This document shows, in pieces, positions 3,222-36,051 of a DNA stretch of 36,555 nt. Position numbers and translations under genes: made by a program. The stretch is taken from NCBI GenBank assembly GCA_029261395.1, contig JAJDBJ010000031.1:1-36555 (forward strand), in the 5' to 3' direction. The notes beneath the pieces are model-generated. The model had not been told where the DNA came from and did no database searches. It was given only the letters and a program-made list of their open reading frames with translations. The stretch is from Nitrospinaceae bacterium (lineage in GTDB: Bacteria; Nitrospinota; Nitrospinia; Nitrospinales; Nitrospinaceae). The number at the start of each line of letters is the position of its first letter. Position 1 is the first letter of the stretch.

Positions 3222-3417
3222 ATTTAACCTCTGCTAGTTAGATTATTGCATCAGAGACGTATTTCTATTGGTATAACAGAATGGAAGGCGAGTACTTTAG
3301 ACATTGAACTTAAACTCAGGTGATCCGCCAGCCCTTGCGGCCAGGTAATCCGGCAAAACGTTAATTCAATAAATTAGGTACACTTGGCAGGAAACTTTTT
3401 TCTACCCCTTCTCTATC

Positions 3418-3446
3418 AGTAGAGGGCATTGTTGATTGAAAGTCAA
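3418..3446 (-). promoter_or_regulatory. Shared sigma70-like promoter element, copy 1
   Basis: On the minus strand TTGACT (3446-3441) is followed by exactly 17 nt and TCTACT (3423-3418). The spacer carries AATGCC just before the -10 box. It lies about 200 nt upstream of the hybrid kinase start at 3221. The same element with the same spacing occurs at 15293-15321 and 19500-19528, each time upstream of another sensor gene. Confidence 0.6.
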
Positions 3447-3568
3447 AACTGAATTATTTACCTGCACCACAAAAAGAGTGCTTGCAGGAAAAGTACCTAG
3501 CCCGGCAAAGTAGAGATGGGGAGTAAAGCTTTTTGGAGAGTGTCAGGCATGCCTGTGCCCATAAAAAG

Positions 3569-3735
3569 ATGAAAACTGTGGCTATGGTTTTGGGTCTCTT
3601 GTTGCTGATGGGGGTGGTAAGAATTCCAAAAGGGTCCGGAAGGCGATTGTTGTGAGGGTTTATTTTTTCGATTTTTGCATCGAGCACCAGGCCCGTTATC
3701 TTTCACTTGGCAAATATAACACCTGCTTTTTCTTC
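3569..3735 (+). pseudogene. Decayed copy of the 125-aa two-Cys protein gene (cf. 19873-20250)
   Basis: This intergenic stretch on the plus strand is recognisably homologous to the start of the gene at 19873. An ATG at 3569 opens MKTVAMVLGLLLLMGVV, matching the membrane anchor of the intact protein (GTGGC..T.GTT.TGGGTCTCTTGTTG at DNA level), then stops at TGA 3653-3655. In another frame from 3670 it continues DFCIEHQARYLS, matching NFCMEH-ARYLS of the intact protein, and similarity fades by about 3735. A frameshift, an in-frame stop and loss of the C-terminal two-thirds mark it as a remnant. Like its intact relative, it lies divergently from a sensor kinase and its TTGACT/TCTACT promoter. Confidence 0.65.
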
Positions 3736-3772
3736 ACAGGTTGTTTTGTTTTACTCATCAGCCATACATTAC

Positions 3773-4528
3773 TCAAACCATCTTAATGGTTTCCAAGAGA
3801 TCTAAAGTTCCTGAAAAATCGCCTTCCTTGATTAATTCTGAAAGGCGCAACTCCAGAAGTTTTCCTTTTTCAATTAAAGCGCTCAGGCTAGCTAGCTGTT
3901 TTTCCAGCTCAGAGATATCACCTTTTTCAATACTTTCTACAAATCCCATAAACATTTGAGTAGGAATGGCTATTTCAGAAAAATTATCCCCAGCGGTATC
4001 CAAAAACAATTCATTTTTATGCGTATTTTTTTCATAAATTGTTTGCGCTTGCTTGCGAATATCAATTTCATGGTTCGCTTCTTCTACCTTCTTTTTTAAC
4101 TCCGCAACCCGAGTACTGACAAGAGCTTTCTGCTTATAAAGCTCAAGGAAAACACCGACTTTACTTTTTAATATTTTGGGGTCCACCGGTTTAAATAGAA
4201 AGTCCACCGCCCCGGCCTCGTATCCTTTAAATTTATATTCCTCTTTCTCATTTAACGCAGTTATAAAGATAACAGGAAGATATTTGGATTTTTTAATTCC
4301 CCGTATTAATTCTGCCACTTCAAAGCCGTTCATTACTGGCATTTGGACATCCAAGAGGGCTAAGGCAAAATCATGCTTTAAAATCAACTGCAGACCTGCT
4401 TCGCCGGAAGTGACCGAGTAAATATCACATTCAAAATCATCCAATACAGCTTCCAGAGCCAAAAGGTTTGCCTGTTTGTCGTCAATGGCGAGGATTTTAG
4501 GTCTTATCTTTTTATTTATTTTTGGCAT
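3773..4528 (-). CDS. Receiver-domain protein with coiled-coil C-terminus
   Basis: A 251-residue soluble protein. An N-terminal REC domain (about 8-125; AIDD acidic pair, phospho-Asp in LLDVQMPVMNG, KPVDP at the conserved Lys) is followed by a helical, charged tail without an enzymatic output. The REC is a close paralogue of the N-terminal REC of the hybrid kinase at 16566-19283 (shared INKKIRPKIL and KFKGYEAGAVDFLFKP). The tail ends with a segment resembling that kinase's extreme C-terminus. The ATG at 4528 is preferred because AGG lies 7 nt upstream; a TTG two codons earlier has no proper ribosome site. It follows cheB by 34 nt, so it is probably co-transcribed with cheR-cheB and may be a phosphate acceptor or adaptor. 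The function is inferred. Confidence 0.85.
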   Translation of the reverse strand: MPKINKKIRPKILAIDDKQANLLALEAVLDDFECDIYSVTSGEAGLQLILKHDFALALLDVQMPVMNGFEVAELIRGIKKSKYLPVIFITALNEKEEYKFKGYEAGAVDFLFKPVDPKILKSKVGVFLELYKQKALVSTRVAELKKKVEEANHEIDIRKQAQTIYEKNTHKNELFLDTAGDNFSEIAIPTQMFMGFVESIEKGDISELEKQLASLSALIEKGKLLELRLSELIKEGDFSGTLDLLETIKMV

Positions 4529-4562
4529 AAACAAACCTAAAAAGGTGAGTAATAATTATTTG

Positions 4563-5156
4563 TTAAAGAGTAGCTGAGCCCTTATCCAAATCCTTGAGAA
4601 ACCGGCCAATCTGTTCCGGGCTATATAGATAATCAATATTAGTTGTTTCCATAGCCGATCGAATCATGGTTTCCCCGTCAGCTTTTAACGGGTTTTGCAC
4701 AATGGTAAGGCCTCCTTTTGCCTTAATTTTCATCAAGCCATCACTCCCATCCCTGGAAGCTCCAGACAAAATAATTCCGATGAGCTTTTTCCCAAAGCAA
4801 TCGGCGGCGGTTTCAAATAATTCATCAATAGAAGGCCTTGCATAGTTTGTCATGTCCGAAGTGGAAAGGCAAATTGTCTTGTCTTTATCAACCAACATAT
4901 GGTAATCGGCTGGAGCCAGAAATACCTTACCCGCGACAAAGGGATCTCTATCGTTGGGTTCATAAATTTTCAATGCCATTTCAGGAGAACCCAAAGCTTT
5001 ATGGAACTCAACGCCACCGCTACTCCTGTGGAGAGCAACGGCGATCGGTATTGAAAAATCAGAGGGCAAGGCCGAAAGAATTGCACAAAGAGGGGAGATA
5101 GAGCCCGCCGAACCCCCAATCACTATTCCTTCAAAACCACTGGTCGATACATTCAT
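4563..5156 (-). CDS. cheB: CheB-type protein-glutamate methylesterase domain, no receiver
   Basis: A 197-residue protein formed only of the CheB methylesterase/deamidase domain. The Ser-His-Asp triad is visible: Ser16 in IGGSAGS, His43 in VALHRSSG and Asp136 in LSGASRDGSDG. Classical CheB is about 350 residues with an N-terminal receiver that gates the esterase; that receiver is absent, so control must come from elsewhere, for example the REC protein encoded 34 nt downstream. It starts 19 nt after cheR. No cheA, cheW or methyl-accepting chemoreceptor is encoded in the window, so the substrate is unknown. CheB/CheR domains fused to or beside multi-sensor kinases are known in other bacteria. 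The domain call is firm; the target is open. Confidence 0.9.
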   Translation of the reverse strand: MNVSTSGFEGIVIGGSAGSISPLCAILSALPSDFSIPIAVALHRSSGGVEFHKALGSPEMALKIYEPNDRDPFVAGKVFLAPADYHMLVDKDKTICLSTSDMTNYARPSIDELFETAADCFGKKLIGIILSGASRDGSDGLMKIKAKGGLTIVQNPLKADGETMIRSAMETTNIDYLYSPEQIGRFLKDLDKGSATL

Positions 5157-5175
5157 ATGATCTCTGAATCTCTCT

Positions 5176-6045
5176 TCATTTTACCATCCTATTGAATGAT
5201 TCAGATGGAACTTTTCGGTAAATCTTTCCATCCCTATTAAGATACTTGAAGTGTTCTTTATTGGCGCTCCTCATAATGCTTTCCCTCAACCCCATACAAA
5301 GAAAACCATGCTTCTGAAGGCTGTCATAAAACAGCTTAATCACACGCCTTGTCAAAACTTCATTAAAATAAATCAAGACATTGCGACATAGAATCACATG
5401 AGCTTCAACAAAGGTTTCATCCACGGCTAAATTGTGATCAATAAACAGAATATTTTTTTTAAGCTTCTTATCCATTATGAAATCCATGTCTTGAACAGAA
5501 ATATATTCTGAAAAGGATTTCTTACCTCCCGATTTAAGATAATTTTCGGAGCATGTCGATAAATTCCTGCTCAAATACTTTCCACCCTTTGCAATTTCCA
5601 AAGCCTTGATATTTATATCTGTCGCATAGATCTGGGTTTTTTCGTATAAATTTTCCTCTTCAAGCAATATCGCCATGGAGTAGACTTCCTCGCCTGTGGC
5701 GCATCCCGCATGCCAGATTTTTAAGGACGGATATGTTCTCAAAAAGGGAACCACATCATTGCGAAACGCCTTATAAAAAGAAGGGTCTCTAAAGTGCTCC
5801 GTCACGTTTATTGAAAATTTGGGTAATATGCTTTTAAAAAACAGTTCATCCCAAATCATTTTATGCTGTAATTCTGAAATATTTCCCAAATTTTGATCCT
5901 TTACCATTTTCAAAATTTGTCTTTTCACTGACAATCGGGAATAACTCCTGAAATCGGAACCATATTTCAAAAAAATTGCTTCGAGCAATAGCCTGACTTC
6001 GATATCCTCACTATCATTTTCATTATCCAAATGCATATTATCCAC
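5176..6045 (-). CDS. cheR: CheR-type SAM-dependent protein-glutamate methyltransferase
   Basis: About 289 residues, typical for CheR. The N-terminal helical domain is followed by a Rossmann-type SAM-binding core with the motif WHAGCATGEEVYS, an acidic TDIN segment and the late motif CRNVLIYFN. It should transfer methyl groups from SAM to receptor glutamates. It begins with GTG directly after the TGA of the 1668-residue kinase (stop at 6046-6048), preceded by GGGGGA, which implies translational coupling to the kinase. An ATG three codons in (6036) is an alternative start. No MCP is encoded in the window, so the methylated partner is unknown; HAMP-containing sensors of this locus are candidates by inference only. 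Confidence 0.92.
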   Translation of the reverse strand: MDNMHLDNENDSEDIEVRLLLEAIFLKYGSDFRSYSRLSVKRQILKMVKDQNLGNISELQHKMIWDELFFKSILPKFSINVTEHFRDPSFYKAFRNDVVPFLRTYPSLKIWHAGCATGEEVYSMAILLEEENLYEKTQIYATDINIKALEIAKGGKYLSRNLSTCSENYLKSGGKKSFSEYISVQDMDFIMDKKLKKNILFIDHNLAVDETFVEAHVILCRNVLIYFNEVLTRRVIKLFYDSLQKHGFLCMGLRESIMRSANKEHFKYLNRDGKIYRKVPSESFNRMVK

Positions 6046-9000
6046 TCATCCCCCTAAGCCTGTTTTTTTAAACAAAATACTCATCTGAGCGAATAGTTTA
6101 TTTTGATCAACGGGCTTCGCGAGGTAATCGCTGGCTCCAGCATTGAGACACTTTTCCTTGTCAGTTTTCATGGCTTTTGCAGTAATGGCAATAATAGGGA
6201 TATCCCTGAAGTTTTTATCTTTTCTTATTTTCCGGATCGCCGTATAACCGTCCATTTCCGGCATCATGATATCCATCAAAATTAAATCGGTGTCCGGGTT
6301 GGACTTAAGAATATCTATGGCTTCCCGACCGTTCCGGGCGACTATCACGTCGGCCTCTTTTTCTTCCAATAAATGAGTTAGGGCAAAAACATTTCGCATG
6401 TCATCATCGGTCAAAAGAACCTTTTTCCCCTGAAAATTATAAACTTCATCCTCAACTGGAGTGGGATCGGGCTCCATGACCTCTTGCTCCGAATAATCCC
6501 TTTCTTCCAAAGAGTCCGTTTCCTCCAAAAACTGTTTTGCGCCGTAGAGATATGCATTGATTTCATCCAAAAGTCTTTCAGGGGATCTCGCTCCCTTAAC
6601 AATGATGCTTTTGGAAAAGCCCGCCAGCTCTTCTTCCTGGCTTTGGGTAAGACTCATTGCCGTATAAATAATCACCGGCACTTTAGGCAGGGTTTCATCG
6701 ATTTTAATTTCATGCAGAAGATCAAATCCAGACTTATCCCCTAAACCCAAATCCAAAGTCATGCAATCGACCTCATGTTTTCTTAATACCTGAATGGCTT
6801 CATCCACCGTTGCCGCACTCAAAAAGTTGACGTTCTCACTATCCAGAAGTCCAATAATACTTTTCCTCATATCCTCATCATCTTCGACCACCAAAATTTG
6901 TTTGATCTTCTTTTTCAAAAGGCCGACTACTTCTGTAAAAATGCTCTCAATTTTTTCCATATCAACCGGTTTCTTTAAAAAACCAGTGGCACCCTTTGTT
7001 AAAGCTTCCTTGGCTTTTTCGTGATTCGCTGAAATGAAATAAACCGGAACGCCCCGAGTCGCGGCATTGGCCTGTAGTTGTCTCATCACCTCCAGGCCAT
7101 CGATTCCCGGCAGGCCCTCGTCCAGAATAATAGCGGTGGGTTGTTTTTTTTCCGCAAGCTCAAGGCCCAGTTCCCCGTCCCCCGCCACTATGGTATCAAA
7201 ACCCTTCCTTTTGGCCGCGTCAGAAACGATTTTTGCAAAACGAGGGTCATCCTCAATAACTAAAATGGATTGAAAGACCGGCTCACTGGGGTGCCTGGCC
7301 TGTGATTTCGGCAGGGGCACTGGAACCTTTACGCGGTCTTCTTCTGTTTCCAGTGTAGAATGTTTTTCAGGAAGGTAAACCGTAAATGCACTCCCCATTC
7401 CTTCCTCGCTTGATAATTGAATCTCTCCACCCAGAAGACGGACCAGCTCTTTTGAAATCGATAGCCCCAGTCCGGTGCCGCCGTATTTCCGGCTGGTGGT
7501 GCCGTCTTCCTGCCGGAAAGCTTCAAATATCTGATCCTGTTGTTTCCTGGTAATTCCCTTGCCGGTATCTGAAACGGAAATCCCAATAACATTTTGGTTA
7601 TTTAACCCTGCCCGGGAAAAAGGAACCTGCGATTCGACCGGATGGAATTTAAGGGTGACGTTTCCTTCTTCAGTAAACTTGAACGCATTGGACAAGAAGT
7701 TTTTGAGAATTTGTTCCGCCCGTTGGAAATCCGTCTGGATATAAGATGGCATTTCCGCGCTGATTTGTGTTTTAAACTCCAACCCCTTTTGTTTCGCCAC
7801 AGGCAGAAACGTTTTTTCTAAAGAAGCGGACAGGGCGGTAAGGCTCACTTCTTCCACATGGATTTCCATTTTACCGGCTTCCACCTTGGACAGGTCTAAT
7901 ATGTCATTAATCAGATCTAGAAGGTCCGCACCCGAGCTATGGATCGTTTGGGCAAATTCGACCTGTTTTTCGGTGAGATTATTTCGTTTATTTTCAGCCA
8001 GCAATTGGGACAATATCAGCATGCTGTTGAGCGGGGTTCTCAATTCATGCGACATGTTGGCTAGAAACTCCGATTTATATTTATTGGCAACTTTCAATTC
8101 CTGCATTTTGATTTTTAACAGACCGCCTTTTTTCTCGACCTCACCTTTTTGCTGTACCAGATCACGCGTCTGCTCTTCGAGGTATTGATTGGATTGCCGC
8201 AGTTCCTCCTCTATCTGCTCCATCTCCTCCCTTTGTGCAATCAGCTCTTCCGACTGCGCCTGGGTTTCTGAAAGCAGTCCAGTCATTTGTTTACGGGCCA
8301 GTGCGGAATTTAAGGCGATTGCGATACCCTCTCCAGCTTGATTTAAAAACTCCCATTGCCGGTCGCTGAATGGGCTAAAGGACCCCAACTCCGCCACTCC
8401 CATCACAATATCTTCATGTAAAAAGGGAATAATCATGATATGGGTGGGCACAGCGTCACCCAACCCGGAAGTCACCCGGAGATGGTCTTTAGGAACATCA
8501 CTGATCACAATACTTTGCTTTTCCAGGACCGCCTGCCCCACCAGGCCTTCTCCAATCTCGAATGTTTTTGAAACATTTTCCTGATGGGCAAAGCCTGCTG
8601 TCATCTTCAATTTATCCGACTCGACCAGGTAGACCGAGCCAATGCGCACTTCCAAAATTTCAGCCAGAACGTTAATGATATTTTGAGCCAACTCAACACT
8701 GTCCTGGTCACCGAGCATTTTGTTATTCAAAGATGCAACCTGGGTTTTTACCCAGTTCTGACGTTCCAGATCCTGGTTGATCCTGGCAATTTTTTCCTCC
8801 GCCTGCTTGCGCTCGGTGATATCCTGTGCGATGCCGGCAAACCGGAAAATGTCTCCTGAATCGTTTCGCACCGGCAAGCCCTCCGCATGAATCCAGCGGA
8901 TCGACCCATCAGGGCGGATGATTCGATAATCCAAATCAAAATTGCCCGCCGCCAAATCCTCAAAATTGAACAGCCCCAAAACCCGGTCGCTGTCTTCAGG

Positions 9001-11052
9001 GTGAAGGGAGGGACCCCAGTCCATGATATTATTCATCAAGTCTTCACAGGATCTGCCCCATACCGTTTCATACGCGTCGCTGATGTAAATCATTTCAGTG
9101 ACCTCCGCATTGATGATCCAGAAGACCTCATGAATATTTTTCGCCAGCTGGTTAAACTTTTCTTCGCTGTCCCGCAATCTCTGCTCGGCCTGCCTGCGCT
9201 CGGTGATATCCCGGCAGGTACCGATAAACATTGTCTTATCCCCCACCTTCATCTCGTTAACAGCCAGGTCCAGAGGAAAGACGCTTCCGTCCTTGCGCTT
9301 ACCCGCCACCTCTCGGCCACTACCGATGATTTTGGCCTGCCCTGTTGCTCTGTAGTTTCCGAGGTATCCGTCATGTTCGCTGTGATAGGGCTCCGGCATC
9401 AGCAGATTGACATTCTTCCCGATCACCTCGGATCTGGAATAACCGAAGGTGCGCTCCGCCGCCGGGTTAAAATCCTCGATCCTACCCTGATCGTTGATCG
9501 TAATCAGAGGATCAACCATATTCACCAAAATACTTTGAGCGCGCGCATCCAGGCTGTTATAGGCATCCTGCAGTGCCGCCTCGGCCATTTCAGCTTTTAA
9601 GGTGCGGTCTTTGTTTTTTTGAACGAGTTGAGCCAACTGGGCTAAAAGAAAGGATGCAAAAACTCCAAAAACAAGGACAACAGTGGGGGTCATCGACCCA
9701 TGGGCCTTCAACCATTGGGGTTTGGGCAGAGCAACAATTCTCCAGGAATTGCCATGAAATGTGATAGGAGTAGAAAAAAGCCATCGATTGCCTTTGCCCT
9801 CCGGTAAAAAATCAAAGTTACCGGAAGTATTCGCCTCCACCAATACCAGGTCAATTCCTTCAGCCTTTTGTTTCGTTGTCAAACTGCTTAATAGCCGATC
9901 AGGGTCCACTACCTTATGAATGAAACCCTGAAATTGGCCCGCATGAAATATAGGGGCCGTGATAAAAAATCCTTTGCCCCCCTGTACCAATTTGCGGGTA
10001 CTGCTGACTACTATCTTTTTTTCATTCCGGGCTCGCATCAGGTTGGCCCCCAGGCCCTCTATTTTGGACAGATCCAATCCTTCTGCGGCTTCATTGCCTT
10101 CCAGTGGGGCAACCCAGCGGATTCGAAAATCAGCATCCACCCATTCGAGCGCCCTGACACTAAAATGATGTTCAACATGGAGACCTGCGTCGGACAGCCA
10201 TTCCTCTTTCGCCGGGGCTCCTCCCACTTCCCAGCGTTTGGTCAGGCGTGTAACGCCCTGGGTTAACGACTCCAGAGTGGAAATAAACTGGCTCTTGATA
10301 TGGAGAGTATTTGTTTTTATTTCTTTTTTAATTGCTCTTACTTCATCCGTTACTACCGCCTGCCATAGAAGCAGAGTAATAGTCAGGGCACCCATCCCGA
10401 CAAGGATGGGTGCCCATTTTGGAGTTTTATTTTCGCTGGCAATATCGGCTTTCCAGGCAAGTAGAACTATTCCCAGCCCTATCAAGATAAATTCTGAAGC
10501 AGTGTGCACTGCCATCCGTGTCAGGTTGCTCCAACCGTAGGCGGTTTCCATGCTAATTAAATAACCGCCAAACGCCGCCAGTCCCAAAGCAAAAACAAGT
10601 CCTCCAATAATCGCTATTGCTATGGAATGTTTTTGGAGTTCATTTCCCTTGCCCAAAATTAAAAAGGAAATGCCGGTTAGAAGAAAACAAAACGCCGTAT
10701 TCGGAGCCATGCGGCCCGGATGAGATGTTTCAACAGTGATATAAGCATCCATCAGGAGCTGGTCGATGCCAAAGTCCACTCCAAACATATATTGAATCAG
10801 GGTCATACTTCCCAGCAACGCAAGGAATCCGCTCGTAATTCTGGTAATCCAGGTCTTGGACCCGTAAGCGGCTATGAGTCCAGCCCCACCAAAAATAAAA
10901 CCAAGAGCGGTGTTGTACTGCATGGGCGCAAAGCTGGGATGGACCTGAATCAGGATGGGGATATGCGCATACCATCCAAAGATAACCATCCCACCCAGCA
11001 ATAAAGAGCTGAAGCCGAGGAAAGGAATGATTATATAAGTGGAAAATTTCAT
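6046..11052 (-). CDS. Large membrane multi-sensor hybrid histidine kinase (7TM-CHASE-like-PAS-PAS-GAF-HK-REC-REC-REC)
   Basis: A 1668-residue kinase. Residues about 1-225 hold roughly seven membrane helices. A large extracytoplasmic CHASE-like segment (about 225-460) and a further TM helix follow, then a FixL-like PAS (about 510-625, His560, IIGSGR), a second unrelated PAS with PAC (about 640-760), GAF, coiled coil, HisKA (His1002), HATPase (NFLSNAFKF, DTGKGI, GGTGLGLS) and three receivers (acceptor Asp in ILDEGLPGIDG, in TLDLGLGDKSG, and Asp1594 in LMDIMMPEMDG). The ATG at 11052 is chosen over an upstream TTG (11091) because CCAGG precedes it and it begins the first TM helix. From the GAF onward it is nearly the same as the left-edge kinase. 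cheR follows without a gap. No HPt domain is present; the one in the kinase at 16566-19283 could serve as relay (inference). Confidence 0.93.
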   Translation of the reverse strand: MKFSTYIIIPFLGFSSLLLGGMVIFGWYAHIPILIQVHPSFAPMQYNTALGFIFGGAGLIAAYGSKTWITRITSGFLALLGSMTLIQYMFGVDFGIDQLLMDAYITVETSHPGRMAPNTAFCFLLTGISFLILGKGNELQKHSIAIAIIGGLVFALGLAAFGGYLISMETAYGWSNLTRMAVHTASEFILIGLGIVLLAWKADIASENKTPKWAPILVGMGALTITLLLWQAVVTDEVRAIKKEIKTNTLHIKSQFISTLESLTQGVTRLTKRWEVGGAPAKEEWLSDAGLHVEHHFSVRALEWVDADFRIRWVAPLEGNEAAEGLDLSKIEGLGANLMRARNEKKIVVSSTRKLVQGGKGFFITAPIFHAGQFQGFIHKVVDPDRLLSSLTTKQKAEGIDLVLVEANTSGNFDFLPEGKGNRWLFSTPITFHGNSWRIVALPKPQWLKAHGSMTPTVVLVFGVFASFLLAQLAQLVQKNKDRTLKAEMAEAALQDAYNSLDARAQSILVNMVDPLITINDQGRIEDFNPAAERTFGYSRSEVIGKNVNLLMPEPYHSEHDGYLGNYRATGQAKIIGSGREVAGKRKDGSVFPLDLAVNEMKVGDKTMFIGTCRDITERRQAEQRLRDSEEKFNQLAKNIHEVFWIINAEVTEMIYISDAYETVWGRSCEDLMNNIMDWGPSLHPEDSDRVLGLFNFEDLAAGNFDLDYRIIRPDGSIRWIHAEGLPVRNDSGDIFRFAGIAQDITERKQAEEKIARINQDLERQNWVKTQVASLNNKMLGDQDSVELAQNIINVLAEILEVRIGSVYLVESDKLKMTAGFAHQENVSKTFEIGEGLVGQAVLEKQSIVISDVPKDHLRVTSGLGDAVPTHIMIIPFLHEDIVMGVAELGSFSPFSDRQWEFLNQAGEGIAIALNSALARKQMTGLLSETQAQSEELIAQREEMEQIEEELRQSNQYLEEQTRDLVQQKGEVEKKGGLLKIKMQELKVANKYKSEFLANMSHELRTPLNSMLILSQLLAENKRNNLTEKQVEFAQTIHSSGADLLDLINDILDLSKVEAGKMEIHVEEVSLTALSASLEKTFLPVAKQKGLEFKTQISAEMPSYIQTDFQRAEQILKNFLSNAFKFTEEGNVTLKFHPVESQVPFSRAGLNNQNVIGISVSDTGKGITRKQQDQIFEAFRQEDGTTSRKYGGTGLGLSISKELVRLLGGEIQLSSEEGMGSAFTVYLPEKHSTLETEEDRVKVPVPLPKSQARHPSEPVFQSILVIEDDPRFAKIVSDAAKRKGFDTIVAGDGELGLELAEKKQPTAIILDEGLPGIDGLEVMRQLQANAATRGVPVYFISANHEKAKEALTKGATGFLKKPVDMEKIESIFTEVVGLLKKKIKQILVVEDDEDMRKSIIGLLDSENVNFLSAATVDEAIQVLRKHEVDCMTLDLGLGDKSGFDLLHEIKIDETLPKVPVIIYTAMSLTQSQEEELAGFSKSIIVKGARSPERLLDEINAYLYGAKQFLEETDSLEERDYSEQEVMEPDPTPVEDEVYNFQGKKVLLTDDDMRNVFALTHLLEEKEADVIVARNGREAIDILKSNPDTDLILMDIMMPEMDGYTAIRKIRKDKNFRDIPIIAITAKAMKTDKEKCLNAGASDYLAKPVDQNKLFAQMSILFKKTGLGG

Positions 11053-11116
11053 AATTTTTTTACCTGGTATTCTTAGCCTGCGGTTGCGCAAGACAGGCTT
11101 TGGCTTTTTTTGCTAA

Positions 11117-12135
11117 GTGGTTCCATTCGGGTGATACCGTACGTGAATGCCGCTCAATTCTTTTGGGATCTTTGCCGGCCCCTTCCCATTCCTCCGCCTT
11201 CTATTCAAAAGCTGGGTTCTCTTTCGCTAATCTTATTTTTTGGATTCCAGTAATTCCGCCAAACGGGCCCTGGCCCGGGAAGAATTAAGATTGATCGCTA
11301 TGGCTTCCACCGCCTGGTTTAAAAATTCCCTATGATCTTGCTGGATTTCATCCAGGGAGGCTAGCTCCAGAACCCCGATCACTTCCTCTTCAAATACAAT
11401 AGGGGTTACCAGCAGGTTCCTGAGCGGGACATCGACCAAACCGGATTGGACCCGGATATAATCATCCGGGAGATCCCTGACCAGAATACTTTTCTTTTCC
11501 AGCGCGGCCTGGCTCACCAGCCCTCCCCCTTTCTGATAGTGATCGGAGAGTTTCATTCCCTGGTGATAGGCATAACCGGCGGCAAACCGCATTTCTCCAT
11601 TCTCAGATAAATAGACGGCCCCGACCTGCATGTTTAAGCGGTCGGCGAGGTAGTTGATGATATTTTGCGACAAGGCGGCCTCGTCCTGATCCCCCCGCAT
11701 CGTGTTGTGCAGTTCCGAAAAACCGGTCTTGAGCCAATACTGTTTTTCTAAAGTCGACCGGCTGTCTGCCAACTCCTGCACCGCCTTTTTCCGTTCGCTG
11801 ATATCGCGGCAGGTACCGACATACATTGTTCTGTCCCCCACCTTTATCTTGTTAACGGCCAGGTCCAGAGGAAAGATGCTTCCATCCCTGCGTTTACCCA
11901 CCACCTCGCGGCCGATACCGATGATTTTAGCCTGCCCTGTTTCCCTGTAATTCCTGATGTACCCATCGTGTTCGCTGTGATAGGGCTCGGGCATCAGCAT
12001 CTTGACATTCTTGCCGATTGCCTCGGACGTCGAATAACCGAACGTGCGCTCCGCCGCCGGATTGAAGGATTCGATCATGCCCTGATCGTCGATCGTGATC
12101 AGAGGATCGGCCACACTTTGAAATATGGCGTTGAA
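11117..12135 (-). repeat. Duplicated PAS-GAF-plus-3' block, copy A
   Basis: This block contains the PAS and GAF codons, stop and about 115 nt of 3' non-coding DNA of the gene at 11233-13092. It matches 13234-14235 closely with few gaps. In the non-coding part both copies keep CCATTCGGGTGATACCGTAC and GAATGCCGCTCAATTCTTTT. Similarity stops just past the non-coding segment and at the upstream edge of the PAS, where the two proteins switch to unrelated membrane regions. Confidence 0.75.
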
Positions 12136-13092
12136 CTCTTTTGATCTTTCTTCAAGTATTTTATTTTTTTCTTTTTTCAACTCACCCAAAGCTTGCGCTT
12201 CCTGATATAAGCTCTTTACAAATTCCAACGCTAATCCTACAAATGGAACCAAATAGGAAAGAATCTTCAGGAAATGGGCTACATTAAAAGCGTTGTCAAA
12301 AAGAGCGCTGGAGCCAAAGGCCATGTAAAGCTGAGTGGATATGTTCGGAATACAACTGATCACAATGGCATGGGAGAAAAAACTGCGATCCTGTTGATAA
12401 TATTTGGGGAAAATGAAAATAAAACCAATGATGTAAAGAACGAGCGGGGCCACATCCCAGGGCCGTGTCACAAGCGATTGAGGGAAAAGTGTTTCTGGAA
12501 GTTGATTGCTGGTGGCGCAATAAGTAATCAGCGCATAGGCCAGAAAGCCGAAGAGCAAGCTCATTCCCAGGACAAAAGACAAACTCCCTTTAAATTTCCG
12601 TGTTTGGTTGGATAATAATAATCCCGCGCCAATAATCAAAATAATGGCATTAAATACCCGGCTGACAGCCCAGGTAAATGGGATAAGGTTTTGATGATCC
12701 GCGGTGGCCTCAATCAGCCGGTCGGCGACCAGCGTGTGAAAGGCATCCATGCACCCGGCACAAAAAAGGGCCATGCCAATAATGGGAATGGAGACGTTGC
12801 GATTCACATAAAATAAACAAAAACTTAAAATAACGGTAAAAATTGCCGAACAAAAAGCGCTCCATTCCAGAATGGTATGGGTAAAGCTTCCCGAAAGAGA
12901 CTCAAATAATGAATCGATCAATTGCTGGGGCGCCAACCCCACAGAAGCGGCAGGATCAAAAGGACGTTCTTCAGAACCAAAATCGATTCCGAAAAGATTC
13001 AGGATAAAGGGGGCAATACAAATTGCGACCACAGTTAAAATTACCGGAGTGGGCAATTTATCTCTATGTAAAAAATTAGGCGCCTCAGCCAT
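11233..13092 (-). CDS. 7TM MASE-like membrane sensor with FixL-like PAS and GAF, no output domain
   Basis: A 619-residue protein. The first ~295 residues contain about seven to eight hydrophobic helices resembling the MASE3/MASE4 class of membrane sensor domains (GCMDAFHTLVA; VAHFLKILSYLVPFVG). A PAS follows (about 320-435; His375 in SEHDGY, Arg in IIGIGRE), then a GAF domain (about 450-605). The protein ends in LAELLESKK, just where its kinase relatives enter the coiled coil before HisKA, so it has sensing modules but no kinase, cyclase or DNA-binding domain. The ATG at 13092 follows GAGGAG by 5-6 nt. It lies between the other kinase-less sensor (13349-15067) and the large kinase (11052), with about 180 nt to the latter. 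It may hetero-dimerise with a full kinase through matching PAS-GAF surfaces (inference). Confidence 0.88.
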   Translation of the reverse strand: MAEAPNFLHRDKLPTPVILTVVAICIAPFILNLFGIDFGSEERPFDPAASVGLAPQQLIDSLFESLSGSFTHTILEWSAFCSAIFTVILSFCLFYVNRNVSIPIIGMALFCAGCMDAFHTLVADRLIEATADHQNLIPFTWAVSRVFNAIILIIGAGLLLSNQTRKFKGSLSFVLGMSLLFGFLAYALITYCATSNQLPETLFPQSLVTRPWDVAPLVLYIIGFIFIFPKYYQQDRSFFSHAIVISCIPNISTQLYMAFGSSALFDNAFNVAHFLKILSYLVPFVGLALEFVKSLYQEAQALGELKKEKNKILEERSKEFNAIFQSVADPLITIDDQGMIESFNPAAERTFGYSTSEAIGKNVKMLMPEPYHSEHDGYIRNYRETGQAKIIGIGREVVGKRRDGSIFPLDLAVNKIKVGDRTMYVGTCRDISERKKAVQELADSRSTLEKQYWLKTGFSELHNTMRGDQDEAALSQNIINYLADRLNMQVGAVYLSENGEMRFAAGYAYHQGMKLSDHYQKGGGLVSQAALEKKSILVRDLPDDYIRVQSGLVDVPLRNLLVTPIVFEEEVIGVLELASLDEIQQDHREFLNQAVEAIAINLNSSRARARLAELLESKK

Positions 13093-13233
13093 TTTTACTC
13101 CTCAGGATTTCTGATTTTCAGCCGTTTGCTTCCGGGAGATAATGAAACTCATCCAAGGAACAATCCAATGCTGAATTCATTTCGATTGGATCAAATAACC
13201 TATGCGTTAGCAGAGCGAAAGGTTTCTTTCCCG

Positions 13234-14235
13234 GTGGTCCCATTCGGGTGATACCGTACAGGAATGCCGCTCAATTCTTTTTGGGCCCTTGCCGGCCCTT
13301 GCCATTCCGCAACCTTCTATTTAATGATTGGACTCTCTTTCGCTAATCTTATTTTTTGGATTCCAGCAATTCCTCCAAACGGGTTCTGGACCGGGAAGAA
13401 TGAAGATTGATCGCTATGGCTTCCACGGCCTGGTTTAAAAACTCCCTATGATCTTGCTGGATTTCATCCAGGGAGGCCAGTTCCAGGACTCCGATCACTT
13501 CCTCTTCAAATATAATAGGGATTACCAGAAGATTTCTGGGCGAGGCATCGATAAAACCGGATTGGATCCGGATACTATCGTCCGGGAGATCCTTGATCAG
13601 GATACTTTTCTTTTCCAGAGCGGCCTGCCCCACCGGGCCTTCCCCTTTCTGATAGTGTTTGGTATTTTTCATTCCCTGGTTAAAGGCATAACCGGCGGTA
13701 AACCGCATTTCCCCATTTTCAGATAAATAGATGGCCCCGATCAGCACGTTTAACCGGCCAGCGAGGTAGTTGATGATATTTTGCGACAAGGTGTCCTCGC
13801 CCTGCTCCCCCCGCATCATGTCGTGCAGTTCCGCAAGACCGGTCTTGAGCCAATTTTGTTTTTCTAAAGTCACCCGGCTGTCTACCAACTCCTGTACCGC
13901 ATTTTTTCGTTCGGTGATATCGCGACAAATACTGACATACATCGTTTTGTCCCCCACCTTGATCTCGTTAACAGCAATCTCCATAGGAAAGACGGTACCG
14001 TCCTTGCGCTTCCCTGTCACCTCGCGGCCAGTACCGATGACTTTAGCCTGCCCCGTTTCCCTGTAATTCCTGATGTACCCATCGTGTTCGCTCTGATAGG
14101 GTTCAGGCATCAGCATCTTGACATTCTTCCCCATTACCTCCGACGCCGAATAGCCGAACACCTTCACCGCCGCCGGGTTGAATATTTCGATGAGCCCCTG
14201 ATCATTTATCTCTATCAATGGGTCCATGATGTTAT
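13234..14235 (-). repeat. Duplicated PAS-GAF-plus-3' block, copy B
   Basis: Partner of the block at 11117-12135. It spans the PAS and GAF codons and 3' flank of the gene at 13349-15067. The conserved non-coding flank (about 13234-13348) carries the same CCATTCGGGTGATACCGTAC string, showing that the duplication extended past the stop codon or has been maintained by gene conversion. Confidence 0.75.
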
Positions 14236-15067
14236 ATAGAAGAGCGAAATTCCTGGCTTCCTTTTCCTGCAAATCCGTGATCAACCCAAAGGCCATTTCA
14301 TTAAAGTTGTGCGTCAAGATCCCAATTTCGTCTTCGGAGTCTCTTTGCAATCTTTCCTGGTTCAGATTCCCAGCCGCAACTCCCATGGAAAATTCGGTGA
14401 TCCTTCGCAAGGGCCGGGTGATCGAAAAAGTAATGGCCATGGCGATAAGAAAACCAAGAGAGACACTCACAAACAGAGTTGCCCAGAGCAAACTCATCCC
14501 CCTGCTGGAGAGCCTTTTCGACTCCTCCAGATCAAATCGCAGTAATACTTGTTGGTTCTCGGCCATTTCGCTGAGTAGCGTATTAATGGCAGAGGCGGTG
14601 GTCGCGGCCGTCTCCGACAAGTTTTTATTGGCCAACGGAAGCTGTGAATTTCTTGAAAGGCTTTCAATTTCTTGCTGGTAGGCTCTTAACTCTTTCAACT
14701 TTTCTTTTATGGTCCGAAACCGCTCTACGTTTTTAGGGTTGGTCCAGTGCTCGGAAAGTTCATTCAGGATCTTTTCAGCCGAATCTATATCTTTCGACCA
14801 GGCCTGTTGGCGTTCCTGTTTAAAATGCTCTTCACCCAACAACAGCCATCCCCGCAAAGCGGCCAATGAGCGGTTTACCCCGTTGAGCATCTTGAAGCTA
14901 TTTTGCGCGGTAGGGGTCCGCAATTCCATCACCCGGTCGCGTAGCTCCTCGGTCTGGTTGAGTAAATTAAAAACGAACAGGATGTTGGCAAAAAAGATCA
15001 AACCGATGACCACAAACCCTAATCCGATTTTTTCACCGACTCTTAAGTTTTTTAACTTACCAAGCAT
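13349..15067 (-). CDS. 4HB-HAMP-PAS-GAF membrane sensor without output domain
   Basis: A 572-residue protein with TM1 (about 11-32), a four-helix-bundle-like periplasmic region (about 33-185), TM2 (about 187-211), HAMP (about 212-265), a FixL-like PAS (about 275-385; His328 in SEHDGY, Arg in VIGTGRE) and GAF (about 400-560), ending LEELLESKK. There is no MCP signalling hairpin and no kinase. Its N-terminal half, ribosome site (AAAGG, 6 nt before ATG 15067) and upstream DNA are paralogous to the left-edge kinase, which carries a second PAS and a full kinase. Its C-terminal half matches the neighbour at 11233-13092. It could act as a regulatory partner of a kinase, or be a truncated derivative. 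Domain calls are firm; the role is open. Confidence 0.88.
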   Translation of the reverse strand: MLGKLKNLRVGEKIGLGFVVIGLIFFANILFVFNLLNQTEELRDRVMELRTPTAQNSFKMLNGVNRSLAALRGWLLLGEEHFKQERQQAWSKDIDSAEKILNELSEHWTNPKNVERFRTIKEKLKELRAYQQEIESLSRNSQLPLANKNLSETAATTASAINTLLSEMAENQQVLLRFDLEESKRLSSRGMSLLWATLFVSVSLGFLIAMAITFSITRPLRRITEFSMGVAAGNLNQERLQRDSEDEIGILTHNFNEMAFGLITDLQEKEARNFALLYNIMDPLIEINDQGLIEIFNPAAVKVFGYSASEVMGKNVKMLMPEPYQSEHDGYIRNYRETGQAKVIGTGREVTGKRKDGTVFPMEIAVNEIKVGDKTMYVSICRDITERKNAVQELVDSRVTLEKQNWLKTGLAELHDMMRGEQGEDTLSQNIINYLAGRLNVLIGAIYLSENGEMRFTAGYAFNQGMKNTKHYQKGEGPVGQAALEKKSILIKDLPDDSIRIQSGFIDASPRNLLVIPIIFEEEVIGVLELASLDEIQQDHREFLNQAVEAIAINLHSSRSRTRLEELLESKK

Positions 15068-15292
15068 ATTTAACCTTTGTTAGTTCGGGCCGGTCACTGT
15101 TTCAGGATGGGATTGAAGGTTTCGATCATCCCCGCGGCGGTGATCCTAGTCATCACATCCACGGTGTTATTCCCGATAGTTTTCCAGATGAATTGCCGGA
15201 ACCTTGCGGCCAGGAAATTCGCAACAATGCCAATTCAAAAAACCACTTTCTTCGGCATACCAAATAGAAAACCGCGTAACCCCCCTTATATC

Positions 15293-15321
15293 AGTAGACG
15301 GCATTATATCTTGAAAGTCAA
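15293..15321 (-). promoter_or_regulatory. Shared sigma70-like promoter element, copy 2
   Basis: Minus strand: TTGACT (15321-15316), a 17-nt spacer ending in AATGCCG, then TCTACT (15298-15293), about 225 nt upstream of the 572-residue sensor gene. DNA between this element and the gene also resembles the region upstream of the left-edge kinase (CCTTGCGGCCAGG around 15204-15216 versus 3334-3346), so gene and promoter were duplicated together. Confidence 0.6.
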
Positions 15322-15487
15322 AGCCCGAAATCGCACTATAGCCAAATAGGCTGAATTCGGCTGTGAGTGATGCGGCCGACGCACTCTTTTCATGAATTAT
15401 ATGAATTTTTAGGCTATTTTAAAGGAAGGAAGGGGTAGGGTCGGTCTTTTCCGCGCGCCACGAAATTAACTTCTACCGGACTGTAGT
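15322..15487. other. Intergenic stretch, no gene seen
   Basis: AT-rich spacer between the HD-GYP gene and the shared promoter. Together with 15068-15292 it makes up about 420 nt without a convincing open frame. I saw no clear terminator hairpin after the HD-GYP gene. Confidence 0.5.
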
Positions 15488-16543
15488 TTAAACCAACGCG
15501 TTTATTTCTTCCGGAAAATCGGCAAATTGCTCTTTAATCGCCATAATATCAGTGAGGATTTTTTTAAACGCCACTACCACCTGGGGATCAAAATGTTTGC
15601 CACTTTCTTTCTCAATTAACTCTACTGTTTTATTTACAGACCAGGCTTTCTTGTAGGGACGCTCCGAAGTCAGGGCATCAAACACATCGGCAACCGCCAC
15701 GATCCTGCCCTCCAGAGGGATTTTATCTCCTTTCAACCCTTTAGGGTAACCGGAACCGTTCCATTTTTCGTGGTGTGTCATCGCAATAGTCTCGGACATT
15801 TTCATTAATAGAGATGTTCCTCCTGAAAGAATTTCCCCTCCCATAGTGGTATGCGTTTTCATGACTTCCCACTCACTGGGATTCAGCTTTCCGGGTTTCA
15901 GGAGAATATTATCCGGGATTCCTATTTTTCCGATATCGTGCATGGGCGCCGCATGGAAGATCTGGTTGACCCACTCCGCGTCGATGTTAAGTGCCTCGGC
16001 AATCAGGCGGGCATAATGGCCCATTCGCAGGACGTGCATACCGGTCTCGTTGTCCTTGAACTCGGCGGCACGGCCCAGACGCTGGGTTATTTCCAGGCGG
16101 GCTTGATTAAGTGCTACGGTCCGTTCATGTACTTTTCTGTCCAACTGGCGGTTCTGATCGTAAAGCGCCAGATGAGTACGGACACGAGCCAGTACGATTG
16201 ATGGGTTGATCGGTTTATGAATATAGTCCACCGCCCCCATATCCAACCCCCGCTTTTCATCTTCGGCTTCTCCCTTGCTGGTGAGGAATATGACGGGTAT
16301 CTTCGCCGTGCGCGGGTCGGACTTCAACTGACGGCAGACCTCGTAACCGTCTATACCCGGCATCATGACATCCATTAAAATCAAATCGGGCTTGGGGCTT
16401 CCCTTCGCTATCTGTAACGCCTTCTTTCCGTCAATCGACGCCATTACTTTATAGTTGTCCATCAACACCCAACGTAATACCTCTATATTGTCAGGGACAT
16501 CGTCTACAATCAGAATTATTGGCTTATTCATATTTTCGCTCAT
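15488..16543 (-). CDS. Response regulator with HD-GYP domain (predicted c-di-GMP phosphodiesterase, RpfG-like)
   Basis: A 351-residue cytosolic protein. REC (about 8-125; LIVDD, acceptor Asp in LMDVMMPGIDG, KPINP) is joined by a helical linker to an HD-GYP domain with His202-Asp203 in MHDIGKIGIPD and the HHEKWNGSGYP signature. Metal-dependent hydrolysis of cyclic di-GMP is the known activity of this family, and the signature is intact. The ATG at 16543 is chosen because GAGG lies 6 nt upstream; the open frame reaches further into the upstream gene. It starts 22 nt after the stop of the REC-HK-REC-REC-HPt kinase, so the two almost certainly form an operon and a phosphorelay pair (inference). 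The likely output is lowering c-di-GMP, which commonly favours motility. Confidence 0.93.
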   Translation of the reverse strand: MSENMNKPIILIVDDVPDNIEVLRWVLMDNYKVMASIDGKKALQIAKGSPKPDLILMDVMMPGIDGYEVCRQLKSDPRTAKIPVIFLTSKGEAEDEKRGLDMGAVDYIHKPINPSIVLARVRTHLALYDQNRQLDRKVHERTVALNQARLEITQRLGRAAEFKDNETGMHVLRMGHYARLIAEALNIDAEWVNQIFHAAPMHDIGKIGIPDNILLKPGKLNPSEWEVMKTHTTMGGEILSGGTSLLMKMSETIAMTHHEKWNGSGYPKGLKGDKIPLEGRIVAVADVFDALTSERPYKKAWSVNKTVELIEKESGKHFDPQVVVAFKKILTDIMAIKEQFADFPEEINALV

Positions 16544-16565
16544 TTTGACCTCAGACAAATCAACA

Positions 16566-19283
16566 TTACTCTTCATGGTTAGATTTAAACTGCAACTTTT
16601 CCGTAAGTTTTCCAATCAATTCCAATGCTCCATCAAACTCATAATTATGAATCATCTTTTTTAATTCTGTTAACTGAGAGCGATACGCTTCGACTCCCGC
16701 CAGACCTGGCATCGATGCCACCAAATCCAGCGCCATCGTATCGCTTCTAATCAGCAACTGAGCCAGATCTTGCAACCGTACTGCAAGCTCCGTGGTATCG
16801 ACTTTCACTTCCGTACCATTAGTTTTATTCTGCGCTTCGAGATACTTCTTAAGGTTGAATATAACTGTCGAAAGAGCCTCATCAACTTTATCAAGTCTAA
16901 CTTCGACCTCCGTTTCCGGCCTCTGCTCATGACATACCTTTTCTAATTCGTGGGCCGTCTCTTGTACCTTTCTTGCGCCGATGTTGCCAGCGACACCCTT
17001 CAAGGTATGAGCGAAACGCTCCAGCGCTCTCATATCCCCGTCTTGATGTACGGCCCAGAACCGCTCAACAAAATCTTTCTGGCCGTCATAGAACATGCCC
17101 AGCAATCGGCGATACAGCGTCTTGTTATCCTGCGCGATGATAAGCCCCAATTTAACATCGATACCCTCGAGTTCCGGTAACTCCAGCTCTCCTTCTTTAA
17201 CTGGGGGCCTTAATTTACCTGTCTGCTCTTTATTGATTGAGCCACCCGGTTTGATCCATTTAGCCATGATGGCATACAGGTTTTGCACATCGATGGGTTT
17301 AACTACATAGTCGTTCATTCCCGCTTTCTGGGTAGCCTTACGGTCTTTGTCCATGGCATTTGCCGTCATAGCTATAATGGGGAGTGTTTTGAATTTCTTT
17401 TGTTTACGAATTTCGCAAGTTGCCGTCAGACCATCCATTTCCGGCATCTGCACATCCATGAGCACTCCATCGAAAGTCTCGGTTTGCAACATCTCCAATG
17501 CCTCTTGGCCGTTATTGGCCACTTGTACCAGAGCGTCGATGCCTTTTAGAAGTTCCAGCGCAAGCTCCTGGTTGATGGCGTTGTCCTCCACTAAAAGAAT
17601 GCGGACACCAGTGATCTGCTTGATATGATCAGATTCCGAAATTGATTTTTCGGTCGGCTGGGCCTTCGGTTTTTGACTCTGAAAGAGCGAAAGAATGGCG
17701 TTGAACAAATCAGAATGGGATACGGGCTTAGTCAAAAAAGGCCCACTCCAGCTTACTCCTGCACTTTTTTCGACTTCCCCCCGACTTCTGCCGGAGACAA
17801 TAATTATTTTTGGTTTTTTTGTTAAATCGGGATCTTCCTGGATTTTTTGCGCCAGATCGGTGCCTTTCATATCGGGGAGCTGCCAATCCAAAATAGCCAA
17901 GTCGTAGGCTTTTCCTTCTTTTCCAGCCTGTTCTATCTCGTGTAAAGCCTGCTCGGAATCCGTACAACTGGTTACCTGGAACTTTTTTATTTTCAGCAGA
18001 CGCTCCATAATTTTGAGTGCAGGGAGGTTATCGTCTACCGATAGGACGCGCAAACCCTCCAATTCGGGAGGAACAAGGTTTTCCGGATTTGATTTTTCGG
18101 CAACCTTGAATCGTGCTGTAAAGTGAAAAGTGCTCCCCTTATCCAGCTTGCTATCTACCCAAAGGCGGCCGTCCATCATTTCTACCAACCGTTTACAAAT
18201 AGACAGTCCCAGACCGGTCCCTCCATATTTTCGTGTAGTGGATGGATCCGCCTGTGTAAATGGGTGAAACAATTTGGAAGCCTGTTGTTCGGACAAACCA
18301 ATCCCGGTATCTTGAATGGAGAAACGAAGAATGACATCGGTACCCATTTTCTTTTCTATTTTGACAGTCATCACCACCTCTCCCCGTTTGGTGAACTTGA
18401 TGGCGTTACTCAATAGATTTAAAATAACCTGACCGAGTCGCAGGGGATCCCCAATCAAGTTTTGAGGTACATTTGGCTCGATATAAAAGAGCAACTCAAG
18501 CCCCTTGTCTTGGCACTTGAGGGCTTCTTGGTTGGCCATGTCTCCTAATATGGATTCCAGAGCGAACTCCACCTTTTCCAAGCTGAGTTTGCCGGCTTCA
18601 ATTTTGGAGAAATCAAGAATATCGTCAATGATGGCCAGCAGGTTGTCCGAGGAATATTGGATTTTTTTCAGAAAATCGGATTGTTTGGAGTTCAACTGAG
18701 TTTTCAGAGCCAGTTTTGTAAAGCCCATAATAGCGTTCATGGGGGTCCGGATTTCGTGACTCATGATTGACAAAAAGTCCGACTTGGTCTGGTTTGCCTC
18801 TTCCGCGGCCTTTTTGGCATACCCCAAAGCTTTAACCTTTTCTTCAAGTTCAAGCTTTTGGTTTTCAATAATTTGCTTACTACGATAAAGATCAAGAAAA
18901 ATACGGACTTTGCTTTTTAGAATTTTTGGGTCCAGCGGTTTGAATAGAAAATCCACCGCTCCAGCCTCGTATCCCTTGAACTTATATTCCTGTTTCTCAT
19001 TTAATGCGGTTACAAAGATAATAGGAAGGTTTTGGGATTTTTTGATGCCCCGTATCAGTTCCACTACTTCAAAGCCGTTCATATCGGGCATTTGAACGTC
19101 CACCAGGGCCAGAGCAAACTCATGCTCTATGACCAACTTTAAACCTGCATGCCCGGAAGTGGCTGAGTGCAAGTCACAATCAAAATCAAAATCATCAAAC
19201 ACGGCTTCCATAGCCAAGAGGTTTGCCCTCTTGTCGTCAATGACGAGAATTTTAGGTCTTATCTTTTTATTCACCTTTGACAC
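16566..19283 (-). CDS. Soluble hybrid histidine kinase REC-HisKA-HATPase-REC-REC-HPt
   Basis: About 905 residues with no membrane segment. Order: REC1 (about 8-125; KFKGYEAGAVDFLFKP), coiled coil, HisKA (His176 in IMSHEIRTPMN), HATPase (NLLSNAIKF, DTGIGL, GGTGLGLS), REC2 (LSVDD; LDWQLPDMKG), REC3 (LVEDN; LMDVQMPEMDG) and an HPt domain with phospho-His in FAHTLKGVAGN. It therefore holds a complete BarA/ArcB-like phosphorelay and takes its input through a receiver rather than a sensor domain. The start is uncertain: TTG at 19286 and GTG at 19283 are both possible with no strong ribosome site. GTG aligns with the ATG of the paralogous REC protein at 4528 and is used here. The next gene is the HD-GYP regulator. 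Confidence 0.92.
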   Translation of the reverse strand: MSKVNKKIRPKILVIDDKRANLLAMEAVFDDFDFDCDLHSATSGHAGLKLVIEHEFALALVDVQMPDMNGFEVVELIRGIKKSQNLPIIFVTALNEKQEYKFKGYEAGAVDFLFKPLDPKILKSKVRIFLDLYRSKQIIENQKLELEEKVKALGYAKKAAEEANQTKSDFLSIMSHEIRTPMNAIMGFTKLALKTQLNSKQSDFLKKIQYSSDNLLAIIDDILDFSKIEAGKLSLEKVEFALESILGDMANQEALKCQDKGLELLFYIEPNVPQNLIGDPLRLGQVILNLLSNAIKFTKRGEVVMTVKIEKKMGTDVILRFSIQDTGIGLSEQQASKLFHPFTQADPSTTRKYGGTGLGLSICKRLVEMMDGRLWVDSKLDKGSTFHFTARFKVAEKSNPENLVPPELEGLRVLSVDDNLPALKIMERLLKIKKFQVTSCTDSEQALHEIEQAGKEGKAYDLAILDWQLPDMKGTDLAQKIQEDPDLTKKPKIIIVSGRSRGEVEKSAGVSWSGPFLTKPVSHSDLFNAILSLFQSQKPKAQPTEKSISESDHIKQITGVRILLVEDNAINQELALELLKGIDALVQVANNGQEALEMLQTETFDGVLMDVQMPEMDGLTATCEIRKQKKFKTLPIIAMTANAMDKDRKATQKAGMNDYVVKPIDVQNLYAIMAKWIKPGGSINKEQTGKLRPPVKEGELELPELEGIDVKLGLIIAQDNKTLYRRLLGMFYDGQKDFVERFWAVHQDGDMRALERFAHTLKGVAGNIGARKVQETAHELEKVCHEQRPETEVEVRLDKVDEALSTVIFNLKKYLEAQNKTNGTEVKVDTTELAVRLQDLAQLLIRSDTMALDLVASMPGLAGVEAYRSQLTELKKMIHNYEFDGALELIGKLTEKLQFKSNHEE

Positions 19284-19499
19284 CAACTGTTTTAAAAAGT
19301 TTCAAGTCGTCGTTATAAGCTGAGTTCCTATCAGATTCACTGATAAACACCGCCCATCTGATCCGGATAATATAAAAAACGCTTTTGTTTTTCGCCTTTT
19401 ACGATCGAATTATAAAACCCTCATCCGATCATAAAGGGGTGCTGGGGAGTCAGCATACCCTACTAAAAAATATGGAATTTCCAGGCTATTGTTTATTCT

Positions 19500-35932: not shown

Positions 35933-36005
35933 AGTTTTCCTCCTGTTTAGCAGTTATCGGATTTGTCAGACATAACCCAAGTACATTAAGTAGAGCTAAC
36001 TGCCG

Positions 36006-36030
36006 TCCGGAGCGGGAAACCCGCTCCGGA
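36006..36030 (-). promoter_or_regulatory. Strong intercistronic hairpin between nxrB and nxrC
   Basis: A perfect 11-bp GC-rich stem TCCGGAGCGGG/CCCGCTCCGGA with a 3-nt loop, 21 nt after the nxrB stop and about 73 nt before the nxrC start. No T-run follows, so it is not a normal terminator; an mRNA processing or 3'-protection element that sets subunit ratios is the likeliest role. Confidence 0.7.
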
Positions 36031-36051
36031 AGCAGACATTGTTGCTCAGGC

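Follow-up and report, generated by a model that had tools for sequence, protein, structure and literature searches.

The contig JAJDBJ010000031.1 of a Nitrospinaceae bacterium (assembly GCA_029261395.1) was analyzed over its positions 1 to 36,555, and this whole stretch of 36,555 nucleotides is referred to as the window. It encodes two membrane sensor proteins that lack a kinase and that both terminate where related histidine kinases (HKs) continue. We named these open reading frames (ORFs) of 619 and 572 amino acids (aa) p619 and p572, respectively, and two hybrid kinases of the same window K1 and K2. The data suggest that the hybrid kinases of the cluster have, in p619 and p572, two sensor-only paralogues that have been maintained, and we infer that they act through heteromers with K1 and K2, a reading to which we assign a probability of roughly 0.45. 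As to their origin, sequence comparison shows that an ancestral PAS-GAF gene, ending at the GAF/S-helix boundary, underwent duplication along with the DNA just behind its stop, that the copies were joined to two different membrane modules, and that both have since been under purifying selection. The elements on which the argument rests are the following.

11233-13092, minus strand: p619, with MASE3 (aa 70-286), FixL-type PAS (319-431), GAF (469-602), and a stop at aa 619 (LLESKK)
13349-15067, minus strand: p572, with 4HB_MCP_1 (7-173), HAMP (215-259), FixL-type PAS (274-384), GAF (423-556), and a stop at aa 572 (LLESKK)
11117-12087, minus strand: copy 1 of a duplicated block, comprising the PAS-GAF end of p619, its stop, and ~115 bp of non-coding DNA downstream; 85.8% identical to 13234-14203
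13234-14203, minus strand: copy 2 of this block, comprising the PAS-GAF end of p572, its stop, and ~115 bp downstream
13905-15085, minus strand: 5' part of p572 (4HB-HAMP-PAS and ~18 bp upstream), homologous to K1 2059-3239 with 78.4% DNA identity
3-3221, minus strand: K1, 4HB-HAMP-PAS-PAS-GAF-S-helix-HisKA-HATPase-REC, running off the contig end, so that its REC is cut; candidate partner of p572
6046-11052, minus strand: K2, membrane/CHASE-PAS-PAS-GAF-S-helix-HisKA-HATPase followed by three REC domains; next gene downstream of p619 and candidate partner

Both p619 and p572 are complete, intact minus-strand frames with ATG start codons, as originally predicted, and a GAGGAG motif (13098-13103) is found 5 nt ahead of the p619 start. 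Their membrane modules differ (MASE3 versus 4HB-HAMP), and their PAS-GAF ends are nearly equal: aa 291-572 of p572 and aa 338-619 of p619 align without gaps, 218 of the 282 residues (77%) being identical. Pfam detected no HisKA, HATPase, or other output domain in either protein, which places both outside the sensor histidine kinases as defined by a HisKA/HATPase_c output. In an alignment of eight sequences that included five GAF kinases (K1 and K2 from the window and, from three further Nitrospinota genomes, L161, L162, and L163), p619 and p572 stop at the end of the C-terminal GAF helix, whereas the five kinases run on with TQxQxEELxxQxEE... to HisKA; the E/Q-rich S-helix is present in K1 and K2 and absent from p619 and p572. 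A hidden kinase beyond the stops was ruled out, since a six-frame comparison of the post-stop DNA revealed neither a kinase remnant nor a frameshift. The family MASE3_PAS_HK (NF047874) matches p619 with 77.8 bits over profile positions 14-387 of 655, far under the curated cutoff of 560 bits because the HK half is absent. The AlphaFold2 model of p619 has a confident GAF core with a closing helix (585-617), and MASE3 and part of the PAS domain are of low confidence. Because only GAF was modelled well, the Foldseek matches of the whole model (phytochromes, DosP) were taken as 'PAS-GAF' only; a sequence search for a solved structure related to the GAF gave a weak match only.

The FixL-like residues that had been predicted were recovered. 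The FixL His is kept in both proteins, as is the Arg 20 residues on, within HDGY...IGIGR in p619 and HDGY...IGTGR in p572. The proximal and distal roles in the heme pocket of FixL are assigned to this His and Arg, respectively. The PAS domain matches the BjFixL structure 1dp6 with an E value of 1.3e-32, so that homology to FixL, the proximal His, and the Arg at +20, which define a FixL-type heme PAS, are all found in p619 and p572, and their heme PAS probably binds O2. Across K1, K2, p572, and p619, the copies of this domain share 65-75% aa identity and 78-83% DNA identity. The retained heme-PAS residues would also fit passive O2/heme buffers or membrane scaffolds that do not signal to a kinase; such a role, however, would have no use for a complete GAF domain and two distinct membrane sensor modules, and we consider it highly improbable.

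The shared end of p619 and p572 is not due to chance. A comparison of the window with itself showed that the two block copies are 85.8% identical over 971 bp and that the similarity extends ~115 bp beyond the stop, with 97 of 116 positions identical in the post-stop part. Because the homology runs through the stop into non-coding DNA, the kinase-less end is older than the split between p619 and p572, and the sequences thus indicate that the common ancestor of both ends was already kinase-less. The post-stop tail was found nowhere else in the genome, which rules out a dispersed repeat; a conserved RNA or terminator was likewise ruled out, since an Rfam search gave no match and terminator-like matches were no more frequent than by chance. 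Near-identical repeats misjoined during assembly could in principle create chimeric ends, and this is a draft genome with repeated modules and a 36,555-base contig that ends inside K1. However, exact matches between the kinase-less and the kinase copies extend over only ~20-36 bp, and the post-stop DNA is unlike that of any kinase copy, which makes such an artifact very unlikely.

The N-terminal half of p619 does not match K1; p572 and K1 share 69% aa identity over 4HB-HAMP-PAS. Since its 5' part matches K1 and its PAS-GAF end matches p619, p572 has a mosaic structure, and sliding identity places the junction near position 14200. K1 (1-1691) and K2 (7097-8823) share 84% DNA identity over GAF-HK-REC and have unrelated membrane modules, and the sequences point to a swapping of N-terminal modules around the FixL-type PAS in these kinases. 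Just upstream of p572 (15068-15200) there is PAS-like debris with a weak match to the PAS region of K1 (E=0.002), the frame of which reads ...RITAAGMIETFNPILKQ and then a stop. In addition, a short match of 85% between 3414-3447 and 15289-15322, upstream of K1 and p572, respectively, is possibly a shared upstream or regulatory relic.

The main alternative arises from these data, namely, that p619 and p572 are by-products of recent local duplication and shuffling, in which the FixL-type PAS served as a recombination hinge and the kinase halves were lost, leaving sensor ORFs with little function that await decay or recycling. The very high density of duplications (84% between K1 and K2, 78-83% among the PAS copies at the DNA level, and 81% for REC), the mosaic nature of p572 with its junction, and the debris upstream of it are in favor of this explanation. 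The record of selection argues against it. Over the last 282 codons, p619 and p572 differ by 119 changes with no indels and no stops, and the ratio of nonsynonymous to synonymous substitution rates (dN/dS) is 0.43 (bootstrap 0.29-0.67), computed from aa 291 of p572 on because the mosaic junction inflates the synonymous rate of the whole PAS (0.70); for the intact kinases K1 and K2, the value is 0.40. Neutral simulation of an equal number of changes gave an expectation of 3.4 stops, and the probabilities of obtaining none and of retaining this much aa identity were 0.03 and 0.0006, respectively. With both frames open, no indels since the shared truncation, and a dN/dS clearly below 1, p619 and p572 have been maintained and are not simple debris, in line with the original prediction; the truncation is older than the duplication, and constraint has acted on the reading frame ever since. 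As only two young paralogues are compared, the evidence for selection is moderate rather than strong. On balance, we regard the shuffling explanation as somewhat unlikely.

The surrounding genes form a signaling cluster on the minus strand, in the order 906-aa hybrid kinase, response regulator (RR)-HD-GYP, p572, p619, K2, CheR, CheB, 253-aa receiver protein, and K1. The members not yet described are as follows.

16566-19286, minus strand: 906-aa REC-HisKA-HATPase-REC-REC-Hpt hybrid kinase without a sensor domain
15488-16615, minus strand: RR-HD-GYP protein, adjoining p572
5176-6045, minus strand: CheR-type methyltransferase, directly after K2
4563-5156, minus strand: protein with a CheB-type methylesterase domain
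3773-4534, minus strand: 253-aa receiver protein, with a REC 80.7% DNA-identical to the N terminus of the 906-aa hybrid kinase; no kinase follows

Related loci in Nitrospinota likewise have a GAF kinase followed by CheR and CheB, and in L163 a REC-HK comes next. The partner of p619 and p572 might be not K1 or K2 but the 906-aa hybrid, a kinase without a sensor domain two genes upstream on the same strand, or the adjacent RR-HD-GYP protein, corresponding to a split sensor/kinase or a cyclic di-GMP branch. There is, however, no common docking domain, the sensors lack the S-helix, and in related clusters (L163) the REC-HK follows GAF-kinase, CheR, and CheB in the absence of kinase-less sensors; we therefore judge such a partner to be quite unlikely.

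Kinase-less proteins of this kind were also found elsewhere. The nearest relatives of the MASE3-PAS half of p619 are nearly all kinases, so that its kinase-less state is derived. Among the GAF relatives, kinase-less ends have at least two further origins in the phylum. (i) A 4HB-HAMP-GAF protein of 594 aa (L157) stops at the same alignment column as p619 and p572, and in the GAF comparison it is placed with a kinase from the same genome (support 86/88); that the identical end point evolved there speaks against mere shuffling. (ii) A 625-aa fusion of an ammonium transporter (Amt) and GAF (L160, 6634-8511) lacks a kinase and is followed, after 54 bp, by a 1595-aa GAF hybrid kinase whose GAF is the sister of its own (support 97/95). 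In L158, a HAMP-GAF-PAS protein is located upstream of another kinase. This recurrence beside, or paired with, kinases of the same genome is the strongest independent argument for a co-sensor role. Exceptions among the mostly kinase-bearing relatives of the MASE3-PAS half are found in five cyanobacterial genomes of the Brasilonema/Scytonema type, which encode MASE3-only proteins of 312-313 aa (L029, L030, L031, L034, and L038) with the common end ...LSESR before the stop and a dN/dS of 0.04-0.19; at L029, L031, and L038, for which the downstream DNA was read, no kinase followed the gene.

A role of p619 and p572 as sensor-only partners is thus plausible, given (i) the near-identical FixL-type PAS in K1, K2, p572, and p619, (ii) the whole 4HB-HAMP-PAS that p572 shares with K1, and (iii) the kinase-less GAF proteins that arose independently elsewhere in the phylum, including two whose GAF is placed with that of a kinase from the same genome. 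Each protein would sense through its own membrane module, MASE3 in p619 and 4HB-HAMP in p572, and O2 through its heme PAS. Both proteins would join K1 and K2 in mixed dimers or larger assemblies via 4HB-HAMP (p572 with K1) and the FixL-type PAS. As such a complex would contain a single S-helix/HisKA strand, neither trans-autophosphorylation nor CheR/CheB methylation of the missing strand would occur. Kinase output would then be lowered or re-tuned when the sensors are abundant, or a second input would reach the neighboring kinase dimer.

A number of observations weigh against this partnership. The original prediction invoked matching PAS-GAF surfaces, which holds far better for PAS than for GAF; the GAFs of p619 and p572 are only 44-49% identical to those of K1 and K2, which weakens the case for GAF-mediated pairing, and the GAF grouping did not place them with confidence as sisters of the K1/K2 GAFs. 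Better candidates for pairing are the PAS copies (65-75%) and, in p572, the 4HB-HAMP (69% with K1 over 4HB-HAMP-PAS). HK dimers usually also need the DHp domain, which p619 and p572 lack. The GAF domains alone have a mild dN/dS of 0.58, a point that also favors shuffling. The suggested search for orthologues with the same end point found no full-length orthologue in 60 relatives, 77 phylum genomes (76 of them other Nitrospinota), and a peptide-pattern scan of 85k species, so that there is no sign of long-term conservation. From ~19,900 rightwards, the window is syntenic with three same-genus genomes (mostly 60-93% identity), and no counterpart of the cluster (1-19286) was present in the DNA fetched around their syntenic regions; a CheR orthologue was likewise not found in same-genus genomes. 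The cluster therefore is a lineage-specific island at the contig end, and the absence of p619 and p572 from congeners would also be expected from shuffling. The same applies to the 253-aa receiver gene, which lacks HisKA/HATPase and the counterpart of which in L163 is a 618-aa REC-HK with an extreme C terminus that the tail of the 253-aa protein resembles: it is a third de-kinased gene of a cluster dense in duplications and debris. Lastly, in the study of the ChrS pseudokinase, the truncated form itself showed no clear heterodimerization in the two-hybrid assay (PMC9491836).

If p619 and p572 do partner with kinases, an HK system would gain inputs by keeping duplicated kinase-less sensor halves that are usually dismissed as truncations, and nature would thereby provide a clean test of whether mixed sensor complexes can be held together by PAS/HAMP/GAF contacts when DHp is missing. 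The phylum includes marine nitrite oxidizers, to which O2 sensing is physiologically central, and the contig also carries genes resembling type II dimethyl sulfoxide reductase gamma and beta subunits (nitrite-oxidoreductase-like; 34919-36549), close to flagellar genes. A broader and rather doubtful proposal is that co-sensors of the kinase-less membrane-(PAS)-GAF type, ending at the GAF/S-helix junction, recur as a class in Nitrospinota. They would associate with CheR/CheB-regulated GAF hybrid kinases in mixed complexes, provide one kinase with several interchangeable membrane inputs and an O2 check, and escape methylation control for want of an S-helix.

The arrangement, originally thought to be undescribed, is new in part, since related precedents exist. 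p619 and p572 resemble FixL (PDB 1dp6; NF041777) in PAS homology and His/Arg spacing, but FixL is a kinase, and they lack HisKA/HATPase and have an added GAF. The N-terminal MASE3-PAS half of p619 is homologous to MASE3_PAS_HK, the HK half of which it lacks. The Caulobacter single-domain PAS protein MopJ acts on the DivJ kinase (PMC4432633) and is likewise a PAS protein devoid of an output domain, which binds to a histidine kinase complex and alters the pathway of this complex; however, MopJ consists of one PAS_5 domain in 165 residues and is not a truncated kinase paralogue, whereas p619 and p572 have Pfam PAS/PAS_9, membrane, and GAF domains, and no PAS_5, and thus are not members of its family. 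In two further cases, for which heterodimers are invoked, the output of an HK is altered by a related sensor paralogue that is non-catalytic or inhibitory: RetS-GacS (PMC4866733) and the Corynebacterium glutamicum ChrS pseudokinase ChrS_CA-fs (PMC9491836); these proteins keep DHp or the whole kinase, whereas p619 and p572 lack S-helix, DHp, and CA. None of RetS/GacS, ChrS, and MopJ combines the loss of these three elements with a retained membrane module, PAS, and GAF.

The kinases themselves resemble the RsbK/RsbM system of Bacillus cereus. There, the kinase RsbK, with the domain order CHASE3-HAMP-GAF-S-helix-HK-REC, is the substrate of a CheR-type methyltransferase (PMC4574943, PMC12848376), RsbM, whose methylation of the S-helix silences this GAF hybrid kinase (PMC4574943). 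K1 and K2 share its order of membrane sensor, GAF, S-helix, HisKA-HATPase, and REC, as seen by Pfam, and K2 is followed by a linked CheR gene (here also by CheB). p619 and p572 differ in that they end before the S-helix, and a kinase-less RsbK paralogue does not figure in the excerpts of the two sources (PMC4574943, PMC12848376). By analogy, since RsbM methylates the S-helix of RsbK, p619 and p572 would lack exactly the segment targeted by methylation, in addition to the kinase.

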